A stretch of DNA of 47,918 nucleotides from a virus, in IMG/VR virus record IMGVR_UViG_3300037196_000092, positions 1 to 47,918 of that record. One strand, given 5' to 3'. Each line of letters starts with the position of its first letter. Positions within the stretch are counted from its first letter, which is position 1. A model generated the notes under the pieces. It worked only from the letters and a program-made list of their open reading frames with translations, searched no databases and was not told where the DNA came from. A program made the position numbers and the translations under genes. This document shows, in pieces, positions 2,709 through 13,033 of the stretch.

Positions 2709-3386
2709 TCAATCGTCCCCCAGCGTCAGCTGCTCCGGCTTCGGCTCGAACAGCGACGGCTGCGCTTCCACGCGGGCGATGCGGTCACGGGCGGCTTGGA
2801 CATATTCTGGGACTACCTCGAACCCAAGGAAATGTCTCCCCAATTTCTTCGCTGCAATGAGGGTAGAGCCTACGCCAGCGTAGGGGTCAAGAATAGTGAA
2901 CGACGGCGGCGCTTTGCTCTGTACGATACACCACTCCATCAGGCCGACCGGCTTCTCTGTGGGGTGCTCACGCTCACAAGCAATGGTGTGCCAGATGTCA
3001 CGATAGCAGTAGACGCCCTGCGTTCCTTGAACCCATGCGACTTCAGCGTCCGAAAGAAAGCATCCGAACGCGGCATCGGATCGCTTAATCCAAACAAGCG
3101 TTCCACCAGAATATAAGAGTTCGGGAAAATGGTTGAATCCCCAGAGTACACAGTGATCGAATACAAGAAACGGCGTTGGATCAAACGGACGATTGTCGCC
3201 GCAGACTCGCGGAAACGAACGACCTCCAAGCGTGAACCGATTGCCGTCAGTGTTGTAGTCCATGCCGTAGGGAGGATCGGAGACGCAGGCGATGCCGTCT
3301 GACGGCAGTGCCTTCGTCAACTCCAAAGCGTCTCCGCACACGACGCTACAGCACTTGTACGGGCCTATCATGCGGTCACAGGTCAT
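2709..3386 (-). CDS. site-specific DNA methyltransferase (N6-adenine/N4-cytosine type)
   Basis: The 225-residue protein has the catalytic motif DPPYG at about 37-41, the HPTEKP motif at about 141-146 and the SAM-binding motif DPYAGVGST at about 167-175. Catalytic-before-SAM order indicates a beta-type amino-methyltransferase, and DPPY favours adenine as target. By family it transfers a methyl group from S-adenosylmethionine to a base in a specific site. No partner endonuclease is nearby, so it is probably an orphan enzyme protecting phage DNA or timing replication. The target-recognition region is short (about 45-135). ATG overlaps the upstream stop by ATGA and has an AAAGGTGG site. Confidence 0.9.
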   Translation of the reverse strand: MTCDRMIGPYKCCSVVCGDALELTKALPSDGIACVSDPPYGMDYNTDGNRFTLGGRSFPRVCGDNRPFDPTPFLVFDHCVLWGFNHFPELLYSGGTLVWIKRSDAAFGCFLSDAEVAWVQGTQGVYCYRDIWHTIACEREHPTEKPVGLMEWCIVQSKAPPSFTILDPYAGVGSTLIAAKKLGRHFLGFEVVPEYVQAARDRIARVEAQPSLFEPKPEQLTLGDD

Positions 3387-3571
3387 GCTGTGCCACCTTT
3401 CACTTCGCGCACCAAGTCCATCATCGCCTCCCTTTGGTCAAGCTCATACAGCAGCCCTAGCTTCAACTCTCCGGGGTAGAGTCGCTGACACGCGACGGCC
3501 TCCCCGATCTCCCACGCGCACCGCAGAAGCAGCTGAAGCCGGTCAGTCGCATTCGCATTCGCAGAAGCCAT
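3383..3571 (-). CDS. small hypothetical protein (62 aa)
   Basis: The open frame lies between a hypothetical gene and the methyltransferase. I start it at ATG 3571, overlapping the upstream stop by 29 bases; an in-frame start further upstream would overlap much more. The product is helical (DRLQLLLRCAWEIGEAVACQ, ELDQREAMMDLVREVK) with an acidic-basic pattern. I do not recognise it. The ATGA overlap with the methyltransferase start supports its being translated. Confidence 0.5.
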   Translation of the reverse strand: MASANANATDRLQLLLRCAWEIGEAVACQRLYPGELKLGLLYELDQREAMMDLVREVKGGTA

Positions 3572-4001
3572 CAGGCCGTCCACAGTCCGCGCAGATGTCC
3601 TGTCCGAATGTATCTCCACAGTTCTCCTCTAGACCCTTTGGTATCGCCGCGATATGCAGTACGATCAGTGATCTAGGAACCATCTCTTCAATCGCTTTCC
3701 GTGCCGTCTCTTCGGTACACGGAGTCATCGCGTAAAGCGCCGCTGGAGAAACCAACCGGGACTTTGCCGGGATAGATGTGCGTTTGACGGTTGATCCAAC
3801 CGGAAGCGTCACATATTGGTTTTCGTGCAATGTGTGCTCGGGACGTTCCAAAATGTACTCACGCTCCGGTATCTCGGGAGAGTCCACGCGGAAAAGCGCC
3901 GCGCCGCCGAAGTATTCCGTGGTTACAAATCCGATTTCGCGCTGATGGCCCATCATCTCCACCACCGCCCAACCTTCAAAATTCGCCTGTGCTTGATTCA
4001 T
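3543..4001 (-). CDS. conserved phage hypothetical protein with C-terminal Cys cluster
   Basis: The 152-residue protein starts with a pattern I have seen in many phage and actinobacterial genomes (GWAVVEMMGHQREIGFVTTEY), often loosely labelled acetyltransferase without support. The middle carries LPVGSTVKR. The C-terminus is Cys-rich (CADCGRPDGFCECEC, about 136-151), suggesting a bound zinc. The start at 4001 has a strong AGAGGAG site, and a perfect TATAAT lies about 30 bases upstream, so this may be the first gene of a leftward transcript covering the methyltransferase and replication genes. Biochemical function is unknown. Confidence 0.75.
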   Translation of the reverse strand: MNQAQANFEGWAVVEMMGHQREIGFVTTEYFGGAALFRVDSPEIPEREYILERPEHTLHENQYVTLPVGSTVKRTSIPAKSRLVSPAALYAMTPCTEETARKAIEEMVPRSLIVLHIAAIPKGLEENCGDTFGQDICADCGRPDGFCECECD

Positions 4002-4019: not shown

Positions 4020-4040
4020 TCCATAGGGAATTATATACTT
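4020..4040 (-). promoter_or_regulatory. candidate -10 element for the gene starting at 4001
   Basis: On the minus strand the left inverted repeat contains TATAAT (4035 to 4030), placing transcription start near 4023, about 22 bases before the start codon at 4001 and ahead of its AGAGGAG ribosome site. No good -35 hexamer is seen 16-18 bases upstream (AAATGC), so an activator may be needed. Confidence 0.4.
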
Positions 4041-4045
4041 GACTT
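4026..4045 (+). repeat. 20-bp inverted repeat, left copy, flanking QueD/DpdA-like cassette
   Basis: GGGAATTATATACTTGACTT is present here and, as an exact reverse complement, at 5165-5184. The match extends to 22 of 23 positions. The repeat is AT-rich in a GC-rich genome. The interval between the copies contains exactly three genes: QueD, the transglycosylase-like gene and a small basic gene. It could be a recombination footprint, a cassette boundary or a duplicated regulatory element. Confidence 0.85.
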
Positions 4046-4057
4046 CCGTTTTGCATT

Positions 4058-4405
4058 TTAGCGCCTCCAGCCAGACCCAGCGCGGTCGGTTTCACGGACT
4101 TCGATTTCAGAAAGGAAAAGTTCGCTCAGGTTGAGACGTAAATACTGGACGATGTTCTCGCAGGTAGGGTTAGACAAACCTTCGATGTCGTTCAGAGTTT
4201 GGTGGTCTAGGGCCATAATCACCGGATCGGCAATCGCCTTGACCTCGGCATAGTCGATGATCCAACCTATCTCGTTAACCTCGCCCGTTATCTCAAGACG
4301 AATCTGATAGCGGTGGCCGTGCATGTTGTGGCATTTGTGATCGTCGGGGACACGCGGCAACCAGTGAGCGCAGTCGATTGAATACTCAAGGAAGACGTAC
4401 TGCAT
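4058..4405 (-). CDS. queD: QueD-like 6-carboxy-5,6,7,8-tetrahydropterin synthase
   Basis: I start this at ATG 4405, where a GGAGG site sits five bases upstream, giving 115 residues, the usual QueD size. A longer frame to 4543 is not supported. The zinc site is His14 (CAHW) plus the two His of HGH, with the catalytic Cys just before (KCHNMHGH). DHQTLND and PTCEN supply the other family motifs. By family it converts 7,8-dihydroneopterin triphosphate to 6-carboxytetrahydropterin, the second step of preQ0 synthesis. It overlaps the transglycosylase-like gene by 20 bases. A PTPS-II type enzyme is the alternative, but the context favours QueD. Confidence 0.88.
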   Translation of the reverse strand: MQYVFLEYSIDCAHWLPRVPDDHKCHNMHGHRYQIRLEITGEVNEIGWIIDYAEVKAIADPVIMALDHQTLNDIEGLSNPTCENIVQYLRLNLSELFLSEIEVRETDRAGSGWRR

Positions 4406-5039
4406 GAATACCTCCAAACATCTCGCTTTGTACAACCCGCTCGCGTAGGCCGGTAGATTCCTCCAAATATGCGCAGAGTCCACGATATTGGACTTGATCT
4501 CCGCGCATCCATCCCGTTCCGTCCACGCTCTCAGCTCCGGCATCGTAGCAATCCCAGAGACGCCGATAAGTGTTGACTCTGCCGATGTGTACGCGTCGGA
4601 ATTCGCTACACCACATCGTCATCGTTTCCCACTTCCATTTCGCAGTACCACCAACAAATATCACGCTCGCAGTACTCGGAACGTCTTGCGGGGTCATCCC
4701 ATCTTGCACAGCAAACGCCAGAGGCCACCCATATTTAGCAGCCTGCGGGGAGTACATCTCCCATCGGCGAAGTGTCCTGATTCGATCCCCAACCACATCG
4801 GGAACCAAGCACCAAAGGGGATTCTGGCCACTCAAGAGCGCCCAATCAAGAAGTTCGAACCAGCCGTCTTCTTCCCAATCATCGTCATGGCCGAAAGCCC
4901 CGTTATCGAGTCCATAGGGGAGGAATCTTTCAGGACCGCGTTGCGCCCCTGGCGAGTACAGATGGCCGATTTTTCCTTCAAATTTTCCGGCGAGGTAGCC
5001 GACTTTAACTCCCGTGTTGTTGGCTACCATCACGAGCAA
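4386..5039 (-). CDS. dpdA: tRNA-guanine transglycosylase-like protein, DpdA-type DNA 7-deazaguanine insertase
   Basis: The 217-residue protein shows degenerate TGT motifs in order: LDNGAF (Asp45, matching the DSGGFQ general acid/base), PDVVGD (Asp81), VGG (130-131, matching the base-recognition Gly pair) and SVDGTG (Asp173, matching the nucleophile). HIGRVNT precedes the last. This spacing is what I know of phage DpdA proteins, which swap guanine in DNA for a 7-deazaguanine. It is shorter than bacterial TGT (about 370) and lacks the zinc site that tRNA enzymes use. TTG 5039 lies seven bases from AAGGAG; ATG 5030 is possible. The QueD neighbour supports the role. The final modified base cannot be read from sequence. 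Confidence 0.75.
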   Translation of the reverse strand: MLVMVANNTGVKVGYLAGKFEGKIGHLYSPGAQRGPERFLPYGLDNGAFGHDDDWEEDGWFELLDWALLSGQNPLWCLVPDVVGDRIRTLRRWEMYSPQAAKYGWPLAFAVQDGMTPQDVPSTASVIFVGGTAKWKWETMTMWCSEFRRVHIGRVNTYRRLWDCYDAGAESVDGTGWMRGDQVQYRGLCAYLEESTGLRERVVQSEMFGGIHAVRLP

Positions 5040-5148
5040 TTTTCTTCTCCTTACGCTTGCGTTTCTTGCTACCTTTTGACTTTGGTTTCGGCCTGTATTT
5101 CAGGACCACATCGGTTATCGTGTCCAACACTTCTGGCGCTTCTTTCAT
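5005..5148 (-). CDS. small basic Lys/Arg-rich protein (47 aa)
   Basis: I start this at ATG 5148, which follows an AAAGG site eight bases upstream. A longer frame reaching 5223 would overlap the recT end. After a short acidic helix (PEVLDTITDVVLKY) the protein is almost entirely Lys, Arg and Ser (KPKSKGSKKRKRKEKK), suggesting nucleic-acid binding. Its stop overlaps the transglycosylase-like start by 35 bases. It is the outermost gene inside the inverted repeats. No family is recognised. Helping DNA contact for the transglycosylase is speculation. Confidence 0.5.
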   Translation of the reverse strand: MKEAPEVLDTITDVVLKYRPKPKSKGSKKRKRKEKKIARDGSQQHGS

Positions 5149-5164
5149 GCGGTGAGCCTTTCGT

Positions 5165-5184
5165 AAGTCAAGTATATAATTCCC
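5165..5184 (-). repeat. 20-bp inverted repeat, right copy
   Basis: This is the exact reverse complement of 4026-4045. It lies in the short gap between the small basic gene and recT, 17 bases before the start at 5148. The TATAAT it contains points rightward here, into recT antisense, so promoter duty is not the obvious reason for its conservation in this copy. Confidence 0.85.
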
Positions 5185-5191
5185 CTCGTTT

Positions 5192-6091
5192 TCATACTCC
5201 CTCCGGCGGCTCTGCGTCCTCATTGAGAATGAACGTCTCGAATCCTACCTGCTCGGCGCTCGGCTGCGGTGCCGCCTTGGCCTTGTCCTGCTTCAGTACC
5301 GACTTCAGCTTGTCGTTGCCCGTCTGCGCCTGCGGCTCCGGTGCCGCTTCCGGCTGGCTGATGTCCACGTAGTCCGCGTCTACCACGCCTCCAGTCGATA
5401 GCGTGAGGTTCTGCAAGCCATCGGCAGCGCGGTACTCCAGGTCGTGCGCCTGCGACATTTCAACTGACTTCGGCATATACTTCATCACCTGAAGCAGCGC
5501 CACCTTGCGCCCATACATCTCGCGGTTGTTCTCATTCTGAAGCGCATAGTGCCTGTCTCCCACCTTGTTGTACTGCCGGAGATGCTTCTCCACCTTGGCG
5601 CGGCTCCAGACCTCGATTACCGGCCACTGTGCGCCCTTGACCCAGCCCACGGCGTAGACGTAGGTGAAGTCTCCGTTCTCCTCTTCGGCAGGCGTGTGAT
5701 TCAGTACCGGCGAGGAACCAAGCGTGTACTGGAACTCGTCACCCTCATGCACCGCTCCCGTCCAGACCGAAGCCCGTCCAGCGCGAGAGATTAGGTCAAC
5801 GTATCCTTGCCACCCGGGGATCAGTTGGCACTTGTTACCGTAGGGCACCAGGTAGCATTGCCCGTTTATTCCCGGCTCCAAGCCAAGCTGAGCGGCCATG
5901 ATGATCGCGGCCAAGATGCTGGTCTTGTCGCAGTTGAACAGCGCAGGGTTCTTGCTCAGTTCCGTGATCGCTACCCGGCATAGCCGGTCTGCGGTGAGGT
6001 GCTTCGGCAGTGCGATTACGATCTGTTTTTTCTGTGATTCCAGTAGCTCGATGATGCTCTTGCGTGCGAGTTGAATTGCGGTGCTGGTCAT
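5192..6091 (-). CDS. recT: RecT-family single-strand annealing protein
   Basis: The 299-residue protein matches the RecT family over residues about 20-215: LPKHLTADRLCRVAITELSK, the conserved AAQLGLEPG and the LIPGWQGYVDLISRAG segment. By family it binds single-stranded DNA and anneals complementary strands during recombination. The C-terminal 70 residues are acidic and Pro/Ala-rich and probably flexible. It is two genes downstream of a YqaJ-type exonuclease, the usual partner that produces single-stranded DNA. ATG follows GAGGAGGAG. I am confident of the family. Confidence 0.95.
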   Translation of the reverse strand: MTSTAIQLARKSIIELLESQKKQIVIALPKHLTADRLCRVAITELSKNPALFNCDKTSILAAIIMAAQLGLEPGINGQCYLVPYGNKCQLIPGWQGYVDLISRAGRASVWTGAVHEGDEFQYTLGSSPVLNHTPAEEENGDFTYVYAVGWVKGAQWPVIEVWSRAKVEKHLRQYNKVGDRHYALQNENNREMYGRKVALLQVMKYMPKSVEMSQAHDLEYRAADGLQNLTLSTGGVVDADYVDISQPEAAPEPQAQTGNDKLKSVLKQDKAKAAPQPSAEQVGFETFILNEDAEPPEGV

Positions 6092-6594: not shown

Positions 6595-7587
6595 TTACTC
6601 ATTCTCCTTGAACGTCGCCAGGAATCGGCGGTATCCGTGCGTCTTTTCGGTGAACTTCGTTACCAGTTCAGAGGTAGCTCCAAGATGGGTGGCGATCGCT
6701 TCCCAATTGACCTTCGCGCTATCTCTGGTCCGTTTCCAAGAAATTCTCCCCCACTCTCCCTTGATGCCGGCCGCGTCCGCGATGCGTTCCTTTAGCTGGT
6801 TGATGTACGCGGATTCGATAGACTCTTGCTCCGTGATGCTCTTGCGAACCTCACGCAGAGACACGGCAATGATATCTGTCTCCTGATCAGAGGCAATCAG
6901 AACCTCCGTGTTCTTCGCCCACTTCCGCGCAAGGTACTCGCTGGCCGACTTGCTACCGTCAAGCGGCGGGCACTCGCCGTTGACGACGTGGCGCTTCCAC
7001 CACGCTTCCGCCTCTGTCTTAATGGTTGCGGCAATCTCAGCGTCCGCGTGAACGATGTACCGCGCGAACTTGCTTCCCCAGAACAGCGCGGCCAGGTCGG
7101 CAATGTCCGTCTTGGCAACGATCATCTGCATGTGCAGCTGCAAGGCGTAGTAGATGGGGATATCGTCAGATTCCGGCTCTCCCCACTCGCCTGCGACCGC
7201 GCGGCCAATGTTCTTGGCATCCACGGGCCGCAAGTCGCCGCCCGCATGTCTCGCATCCAGGGTTGCCCCGAGCAACATACAATCGGGAGCGGTAATCAGT
7301 TTGTAGGGATCGGCGTAGGCCAGCAGGTGCCCCGTCTCTTCTTCGTATCCCCGCAGGATGCCGCGCTCTAGGCGATGGCCCCACTTCATCTGCTCGTTAA
7401 CTTCCTGCTCGACTCCCTCGTTCCGCTTCTCCAGCCACACGTCAACAGGGCTGCGGAACTTCGAGAGGCCGAGGATCGAGGCAATGTCAGTTCCCGTGAT
7501 ATGCTTCCGGCGCTCCTCAAGCCACGCCGCGCGGCGTTCCTTGTCAGACATTCTCATAATAAACGCAAGTCTCTCTTCGTCGTTCAT
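6595..7587 (-). CDS. YqaJ-like viral recombinase exonuclease
   Basis: The 330-residue protein has the YqaJ nuclease fold signature: RRKHITGTDIASILGLSKF (about 27-45), MKWGHRLE with Glu74, GATLDARH with Asp111 and VDAK at 122-125 as the metal-binding D-x-K, followed by a helix with YYALQLHMQM. Most relatives have E-x-K, so Asp123 is a conservative variant. By family it degrades one strand of duplex DNA to supply RecT. The C-terminal 100 residues are helical. ATG follows AAAGGGATAGCG. Partnership with recT two genes downstream strongly supports the role. Confidence 0.9.
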   Translation of the reverse strand: MNDEERLAFIMRMSDKERRAAWLEERRKHITGTDIASILGLSKFRSPVDVWLEKRNEGVEQEVNEQMKWGHRLERGILRGYEEETGHLLAYADPYKLITAPDCMLLGATLDARHAGGDLRPVDAKNIGRAVAGEWGEPESDDIPIYYALQLHMQMIVAKTDIADLAALFWGSKFARYIVHADAEIAATIKTEAEAWWKRHVVNGECPPLDGSKSASEYLARKWAKNTEVLIASDQETDIIAVSLREVRKSITEQESIESAYINQLKERIADAAGIKGEWGRISWKRTRDSAKVNWEAIATHLGATSELVTKFTEKTHGYRRFLATFKENE

Positions 7588-11956: not shown

Positions 11957-12057
11957 CCCTGGAGTGGGTGCGCGACCAAATAGAACCGATTCCAGAGAAG
12001 CGTCGCCAGGTGTTGAGCGCGATGATACTCAAGAGAGTTAAGGAGGCTTTGCGATGA
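11908..12057 (+). CDS. small hypothetical protein (49 aa), GTG start
   Basis: GTG 11908 follows a strong GGAGG site five bases upstream, and the frame ends in an ATGA overlap with the next gene, so it is very likely translated. The sequence is one basic amphipathic helix (AEQREAKLRAALEWVRDQIE, then IPEKRRQVLSAMILKRVKEA). It shares the AEQREAKLRA segment with the upstream protein and could pair with it as a heteromeric coiled coil. No family is recognised. Confidence 0.7.
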   Translation: MTNVPAAEQREAKLRAALEWVRDQIEPIPEKRRQVLSAMILKRVKEALR

Positions 12058-12359
12058 CCGGAGTTGAGCTTATTGCAGCAGAGCGCCATCGCCAGATCGA
12101 GGTTGAAGGCTGGACTCCCGCGCACGATGACGAACATGGGAGGGGGCAGCTTTCTTGTGCTGGCGCGTGCTATGCGCGGCTGGCATCCAATCAAGAGACG
12201 TATCAGACACGAGCTATTCCAGACCCGCGTCCTCTTACCTGGCCGTGGTCTGCAAAATGGTGGAAGCCGTCCGCCGACCCTATCCGCAACTTGGTTAAGG
12301 CGGGAGCACTGATCGCAGCGGAGATCGACCGGCTGCAAAGAAAGGCGCTGAAACTATGA
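12054..12359 (+). CDS. conserved phage hypothetical protein (101 aa)
   Basis: This is a family I recognise as widespread in phages: TGVELIAAERHRQIEVEGWT, then HDDEHGRGQLSCAGACYA, then WPWSAKWWKPS and IRNLVKAGALIAAEIDRLQR. The conserved His/Asp/Glu residues (E-x2-RQ, HDDEH) give it the look of a small all-helical domain of MazG-like style, but I cannot assign a reaction. Length is typical for the family. Confidence 0.75.
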   Translation: MTGVELIAAERHRQIEVEGWTPAHDDEHGRGQLSCAGACYARLASNQETYQTRAIPDPRPLTWPWSAKWWKPSADPIRNLVKAGALIAAEIDRLQRKALKL

Positions 12360-13033
12360 TGACCGTACCGGCAGGAATGAAACCGTTCAACCTGGAGGCC
12401 GCGAAGACGGGCGCTCCGTGCGTCACCAGGGATGGGCGAAAGGTGGTATTCGTATCAGACCACTACGATGTGAAAGTCCCTGAGATGCTGGTGGAGTTTT
12501 GTTATGCAGACCTTAGTAGTGCCAACATCAGGGTAGATGAACGCGGTCGTTTTTACGGAGGATTGTATGCGTCTCCTAAAGACGTGTTTCTCCTCGCCCC
12601 CGAGCCGCAGGTCGGACCGCTCGGCCCGGAGCCTCCGGTTAATCAGAAGTTGGCGGAGTTGCTAGAGAAGGCACGTCACTACCCCATGTCTCCCGCCGAA
12701 AAGTGGGATCAGCACGTGTCGTTCGTTTACGGAAACGTAGCTATGCACAATCCTGAGATCACGAGAGAGTTGGTGGAAGCTGCTGCCACAGAGTTGTACG
12801 GCCCCAGGCCGGAGGAGCCGCCAGCCAAGCCCTACGCGCAGTTTTCGCCAGAGGAGTTACGTCGGATTCAGCAGGCTACCTTAGCGAAAGCGCCGCCCGC
12901 TCCGCCCCCGGCCAAGCCGAAGGCAATTCAGATGGTGCTCAATTCTGCCGATGACCTAATCGTGCTCTATGACGACAACTCGTTTTGGAAGCTGGAATAT
13001 CGCGGATGGCGGCGCATCCCGCCGGGTGAATGA
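12356..13033 (+). CDS. phage hypothetical protein, three-part architecture (225 aa)
   Basis: Residues 8-80 match a frequent phage segment (PFNLEAAKTGAPCVTRDGRK, YGGLYASPKDVFLLAPEP), probably a small beta fold. Residues about 100-145 carry a second (ARHYPMSPAEKWDQHVSFVYGN in abbreviated form, then NPEITRELVEAAA). Pro-rich linkers (PPAPPPAKPK) separate a C-terminal beta segment (VLYDDNSFWKLEYRGWRRIP). It looks like a fusion of modules usually found separately. Function is unknown. ATG 12356 and 12359 are both possible. Confidence 0.7.
   Translation: MMTVPAGMKPFNLEAAKTGAPCVTRDGRKVVFVSDHYDVKVPEMLVEFCYADLSSANIRVDERGRFYGGLYASPKDVFLLAPEPQVGPLGPEPPVNQKLAELLEKARHYPMSPAEKWDQHVSFVYGNVAMHNPEITRELVEAAATELYGPRPEEPPAKPYAQFSPEELRRIQQATLAKAPPAPPPAKPKAIQMVLNSADDLIVLYDDNSFWKLEYRGWRRIPPGE

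Follow-up and report, generated by a model that had tools for sequence, protein, structure and literature searches.

The IS1595 family of insertion sequences (IS) is said to have been described by Siguier et al. in 2009, and the same work may describe methyltransferase passengers in chromosomal IS1595 members. Two kinds of IS-derived units have been defined, namely the transporter IS (tIS; PMC3129680) and the mobile insertion cassette (MIC) of the MIC231 type (PMC3129680, PMC3281130). Insertion sequences are described as rare in phages and transposases as very rare in virulent phages (PMC8136500, PMC8631192); because of this rarity, the gain of a single DNA-modification gene by a phage is usually ascribed to other kinds of recombination. 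Integron gene cassettes are reported to be mobile cassettes that occur in both temperate and virulent phages (PMC9892861). For the 7-deazaguanine DNA modification of phages, host supply of the missing preQ0 pathway has been considered for those phages that do not encode it (Hutinet et al. 2019, PMC6884629), and transposons go unmentioned in the text of that study.

Here we analyzed a 47,918-nucleotide viral record (the window, meaning this whole stretch of DNA), which is a phage with a recognizable terminase large subunit (1.9e-8), major head protein (1.1e-5) and endolysin, and we focused on the interval 4026-5184. This interval keeps both IS ends, has no transposase and carries two passengers, queD and a dpdA-like gene, that are unrelated to transposition; under the published definitions (PMC3129680) it is therefore a mobile insertion cassette whose source was a transporter IS. 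We consider it highly probable that 4026-5184 is such a cassette, having arisen from an IS1595-family transporter IS that lost its transposase, with dpdA-like/queD cargo.

The locus shares terminal repeats with IS and tIS of the IS1595 family, and its relatives add 8-bp duplications, a PF12762/PF12760 transposase and passengers behind the transposase; in contrast to that family, the window copy is devoid of a transposase, the relatives are phage-borne and the passengers are often DNA-modification genes. As in MICs, IS ends surround passengers with no transposase between them, and a related IS could activate the unit in trans, but the ends are of IS1595 and not IS231 type, the location is a phage, the cargo is dpdA-like/queD, and the transposase deletion from which the unit arose can still be seen. 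Phage 7-deazaguanine systems (PMC6884629) likewise combine QueD with a DpdA/TGT-like protein, and DpdA-like relatives are annotated in phages, whereas the window protein belongs to a short (217 aa) DpdA-like subfamily, has no adjacent FolE, QueE or QueC and is transposon-borne. Integron cassettes (PMC9892861) have attC sites and an integron integrase in place of the transposon ends and DDE transposase involved here. The locus is thus no new class of element; what is new is a phage IS1595-family insertion cassette with 7-deazaguanine-type cargo, and our search of the open literature turned up no account of phage IS1595 elements carrying DNA-modification genes.

The interval and its inverted repeats

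A repeat search located two arms of 23 nt that are 22/23 (96%) complementary, with a spacing of 1113 nt. The right, transposase-distal terminal inverted repeat lies at 4026-4048 on the plus strand (inward GGGAATTATATACTTGACTTCCG; 20-mer core 4026-4045), and the left, transposase-proximal one at 5162-5184 on the minus strand (inward GGGAATTATATACTTGACTTACG; 20-mer core 5165-5184), where it includes the 18-mer core of the repeat family discussed below. Of the perfect 20-mer, AAGTCAAGTATATAATTCCC, the 47,918-bp record has exactly two copies; no further site was found in the record at up to 3 mismatches, and none was found in 100 dinucleotide shuffles. Both arms occupy intergenic gaps, one toward recT (5192-6091) and the other toward a gene at 3543-4001, and both are ends of the GGGAATTATATACTTGAC-type subgroup of the repeat family. 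In the left arm, the final few bases of the 23-nt match double as a remnant of a transposase gene.

Between the arms lie three genes, as a sequence-only reading of this DNA had proposed when it described QueD, a TGT-like protein and a small basic gene bounded by perfect 20-bp inverted repeats (22/23 when extended); all three are on the minus strand. The queD-like gene of the 6-pyruvoyl-tetrahydropterin synthase family (4058-4405; PF01242 PTPS, 8.2e-25) is preceded by the gene for the DpdA/TGT-like protein of 217 aa (4386-5039; phrog_15826, 7e-29), which starts at TTG 5039 as listed or at the in-frame ATG 5030. The small basic ORF (5005-5148, 47 aa, ...DTITDVVLKYRPKPKSKGSKKRKRKEKK...) gave no Pfam or PHROGs match; tblastn showed it to be homologous to the small ORF behind the transposase of full-length elements. 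Upstream of the cassette, on the recT side, recT is followed by a YqaJ exonuclease gene (6595-7587); downstream are the gene at 3543-4001 and a DNA methyltransferase. The latter, an N6/N4-type enzyme encoded at 2709-3386, is close to the cassette, and given its presence the phage may have two kinds of DNA protection.

A repeat family in viral and bacterial genomes

In an exact scan, the 18-bp core GTCAAGTATATAATTCCC was found in at least 120 viral stretches and at least 120 bacterial genome stretches, and among the matches listed many formed outward-facing pairs 0.04-3.5 kb apart. Perfect 8-bp target duplications flanked 46 of the 61 viral pairs among these matches (non-redundant, with full flanks, the window left out), while permutation gave a mean of ~0.8 and a maximum of 5 in 2,000. 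Likewise, 42 of 52 elements in bacterial genomes, again among the matches listed, had perfect 8-bp duplications. The duplicated target sequences were 84% A+T, and no listed element showed a 9- or 10-bp flank match. Full-length pairs encode a protein of ~305 aa with an ISXO2-like DDE domain (PF12762, 6.8e-47) and an IS1595 zinc ribbon (PF12760), a combination found in L031, L029 and L116. On the basis of this transposase and the 8-bp duplications, we assign the repeat to an IS1595-family group as its terminal inverted repeat, with the consensus GGGAATTATATACTTGACTCCC.

Full-length elements are laid out as left repeat, transposase, small basic ORF (e.g., DAITDVVLAYRPKPKSKPAKKRKRR), cargo and right repeat, and the stop codon of the transposase gene and the start codon behind it usually share an ATGA. 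By tblastn, more than half of the transposase-bearing viral elements have a homologue of the small ORF seen in the window. At the transposase-proximal end, TTGACT forms a -35 box, and 44 of 65 transposase-bearing elements have a -10-like hexamer 17 bp inward of it. A 1,561-bp element sits at two different targets with 99.7% identity (L058, L112). Of the elements that have no transposase, L080 and L084, each of 1,069 bp, are 91% identical at different targets, and among the matches listed a perfect duplication is kept in 21 of 23 such elements. The family is nearly absent from sequenced isolates, with two tblastn matches among 50,697 phage records, and part of the L031 element had no plasmid match by blastn. 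Because many copies have no transposase, the family is easily overlooked.

Some unusual arrangements of the ends were also observed. Two end repeats stand almost back to back at L110:6144-6182 and L025:270-317 (39 and 48 bp in all), each pair flanked by perfect 8-bp duplications; these are the smallest possible elements or excision scars. At L018:7107-7144, left end repeats are found in tandem (7107 and 7127), as if an element had inserted at the end of another.

Transposase loss and relatives of the cassette

No IS1595 transposase (PF12762) was found in the 47.9-kb record, only an eight-codon 3' remnant at 5145-5171 on the minus strand. Here, the left repeat continues straight into LTYERLTA-stop (TTGACTTACGAAAGGCTCACCGCATGA), the C-terminus of the transposase, and the remnant stop still overlaps the start of the small ORF in an intact ATGA; this ORF is itself a member of the family that follows IS1595 transposases. 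Since the left end is fused to the last transposase codons, the transposase has been deleted. L016, the closest sister among those seen, shares with the window the repeat variant and the start of the small ORF, and it retains 50 codons of the transposase end (TTGACTTACAAGAGGCTGACAGCATGA), the remnant finishing in TTGACTTACAAGAGGCTGACAGCATGAAAGAAGCGCC. Its cargo is a DNA methyltransferase (phrog_757), and it has a perfect duplication, AAAGTTAT.

In the simplest history, the ancestor would have comprised a left repeat with a built-in -35 box, an IS1595 transposase, the small basic ORF, cargo and a right repeat, and the dpdA-like/queD pair, of the kind found in many phages free of any transposon, would have been captured as cargo in this lineage. 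The transposase would then have been lost, probably across a 7-bp repeat, between the TTGACTT of the left repeat and a TTGACTT near the transposase 3' end, an event that we infer from the junction seen in the DNA. With the transposase the -10 element went as well, so that the cargo is probably read from the recT side. Since both ends were kept, the window element could be moved by an IS1595 transposase acting in trans, whether encoded by the host or by a co-infecting phage, and reinsertion would create an 8-bp duplication, of the sort that is seen, by sequence, in the relatives. The sequence-only reading had suggested a unit with its own ends, which holds for the IS1595 repeats but not for a transposase of its own. 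The window copy has no 8-bp target duplication (TTTCCATA versus CTCGTTTT, 6 of 8 mismatched), and in this it resembles the 15 of 61 other viral pairs among the matches listed that have no perfect duplication; a near-duplication close to its ends, TATGAAAA/TATGGAAA, is no more than suggestive.

The window cassette was found in four other viral contigs (L003, L004, L005 and L006) at ~77% nucleotide identity and with unrelated flanks. The repeat is kept, on the queD side, in three of them (L003, L004 and L006), where the homology stops at its outer edge and the left end is truncated, while L005 has the two main genes and no repeat; these truncations and the repeat-free copy suggest that the genes also travel or persist without the transposon. 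Over 1,081 bp, L003 and L006 are 99.6% identical, with unrelated surroundings, so the transfer was recent. In L006, the cassette interrupts a small gene that is intact in a sister contig, L341, whose flanks match those of L006 at 98.6% (1,281 bp) and 93.1% (1,648 bp) and in which a 31-nt target is present in single copy. By sequence comparison, L341 shows the site of L006 in its unoccupied form. The mobility proposed by the sequence-only reading is thus supported by IS1595-family ends with 8-bp duplications in relatives, by unrelated contexts and by an empty allele, and the search for the repeat and for presence or absence of the cassette that it had called for yielded unrelated places, L341 and three relatives with the repeat. 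A direct nucleotide search of the cassette region against isolate phages gave no match, and a recT relative (L129, 69% identical), whose recT has no cassette next to it, is too far diverged to stand for the exact empty site of the window.

The direct repeat of 31 nt in L006 can be split into 8 bp and a further 23 nt of target. The empty allele and the 8-bp rule of the family speak against a long target duplication or a target-primed insertion; more likely, we infer, an empty and an occupied allele recombined near GAAAGA/GAG, which also removed the left end. The inserted element gives the remainder of the interrupted gene (L006:4972-5139) a new in-frame start codon (ATGAAAGGGAGTCAAG...). L003 (7017 onward) and L004 (6789 onward) are of one lineage, 99% identical on the left and wholly different to the right of the end repeat; a search for an adjacent deletion or inversion found the right flank of L004 to be absent from the 43-kb L003 record.

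These relatives also bear on other explanations for the locus. The gene pair might be an ordinary phage moron that arrived by illegitimate or homologous recombination, its repeats being an old relic with no present role in mobility. About 29 loci besides L005, among the 80 kept, have the dpdA-like/queD pair without the repeat, the window copy has neither duplication nor transposase, and the left-end truncations of L003, L004 and L006 resemble recombination. We nevertheless consider this explanation unlikely: homology in the same three contigs breaks off precisely where the right repeat has its outer edge, one empty allele has been identified and perfect duplications are common in elements that have no transposase. 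An assembly artefact, in which the contig was joined via a repeat common to several elements, would fit the identity of repeat copies across contigs, the divergence of L003 and L004 right of the repeat and the missing duplication in the window, but it is very improbable given that a 20-nt repeat is short for a mis-join, that gene order and strand run on and that the transposase remnant makes a natural deletion junction. Even less probable is a widespread promoter or operator in place of a transposon end. The repeat does contain TTGACT, with the -10-like hexamer inside that most transposase-bearing elements have, and TATAAT when read outward, and the sequence-only reading had itself named wide occurrence as an ordinary promoter among the findings that would overturn it; yet the copies are paired, face outward and abut 8-bp duplications, which refutes a promoter-only role, homology ends at the repeat edge, the window genome has just 2 copies, and promoter activity is a property of the transposon end itself. 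The notion, also raised by that reading, of an invertible cassette flipped by a recombinase to switch expression is likewise very unlikely, since apart from the perfect inverted repeats around the genes no recombinase or invertase gene was recognized inside the element, no inverted copy was seen among the relatives (the repeat is on the queD side in all three), and the family repeats go with target duplications and a DDE transposase.

Cargo of the window element and of its family

Returning to the mobile insertion cassette, we examined its two passengers. The 217-aa protein is ~30% identical to phage proteins annotated as 'DpdA-like tRNA-guanine transglycosylase', and its profile searches returned nothing useful in Pfam or PDB sequences. 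A first fold from five sequences was poor (pLDDT 50) and was replaced by a model from a 35-sequence alignment (pLDDT 89, pTM 0.87). With this model, Foldseek retrieved TIM barrels, many of them tRNA-guanine transglycosylases, together with the DNA preQ0 insertase DpdA (7ui4, E 1e-4); E-values were modest, and other TIM-barrel enzymes ranked alongside TGT. Invariant positions in the alignment were D45, D81, Q112, G130-G131, H151 and D173, of which all but H151 stand where TGT active-site residues would be expected. Homology to the annotated DpdA-like proteins and the predicted fold thus support a DpdA-type assignment. QueD has H14, C25, H29, H31, D67, H68 and E102, including the CxxxHGH motif and zinc ligands (C25, H29, H31 and H14), presumably the PTPS/T-fold signature.

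An alignment-based scan yielded at least 355 viral relatives of the 217-aa protein. Of these, 80 loci were kept, at least 33 of which have queD within ~1 kb on either side, and the repeat is present at just the three known relatives. The frequency of the pair without the transposon suggests that it is probably a functional unit older than its capture, and dpdA-like/queD is apparently an undescribed phage gene pair. On homology and fold, the cargo probably works with host QueE and QueC to give a preQ0-type 7-deazaguanine, which would enter phage DNA as protection against restriction; the host would have to supply the rest of the preQ0 pathway. Against this predicted DNA-modifying role counts the Mycobacterium phage Orion, which has a lone DpdA and no 7-deazaguanine in its DNA (PMC6884629). 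In Escherichia phage phiG7, where a 7-deazaguanosine inserting enzyme is annotated as well, a short DpdA-like relative is split over two overlapping hypothetical ORFs (L260:1441-2033).

Among 62 non-redundant viral elements (window excluded), at least 23 have a DNA methyltransferase, Mom or restriction gene; as the proteins were picked by eye, this number is a lower bound and no measure of enrichment, and L084 and L102 enter it as near-copies of L080 and L086. N6/N4 methyltransferases are carried by L014, L015, L036, L047, L053, L054, L071, L103 and L113, C5 methyltransferases by L023, L035, L050, L081, L086/L102 and L092, and other DNA methyltransferase families by L080/L084 (D12), L016 and L045 (phrog_757) and L093. 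Mom is in the second element of L047, and restriction enzymes are in L116 (MvaI/BcnI) and L023 (Eco29kI, beside its methyltransferase). Phage hallmarks, i.e., portal, tail, terminase, DNA polymerase, primase and internal virion protein, flank many of these elements. L047 has two transposase-less elements with perfect duplications (1658-2462 and 11961-12588), one carrying the N6/N4 DNA methyltransferase and the other the Mom-family protein. A phrog_31486 protein (L035:8191-9057, 5e-123; L093:11730-12599) adjoins a C5 DNA methyltransferase and is possibly the partner restriction enzyme.

The window cassette falls within this phage-resident transposon group, which often carries DNA-modification genes, and through the same transposon ends many unrelated phage genomes receive genes for DNA methylation, restriction and other kinds of DNA modification. 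We tentatively suggest, with a little less than even confidence, that IS1595 transposons and their transposase-less cassettes form a phage/bacterial exchange system for counter-restriction genes, which would pass between unrelated phages, with some copies using a foreign transposase. Besides DNA methyltransferases and Mom, genes for 7-deazaguanine insertion and restriction-modification sets would be among the cargo so exchanged, and the same small basic ORF would often precede it. In this transposon family, which has exact ends and for which duplications and an empty site are known, DNA-modification genes move from phage to phage, and the 18-bp end can be used to find more anti-restriction cargo and to date transfers.
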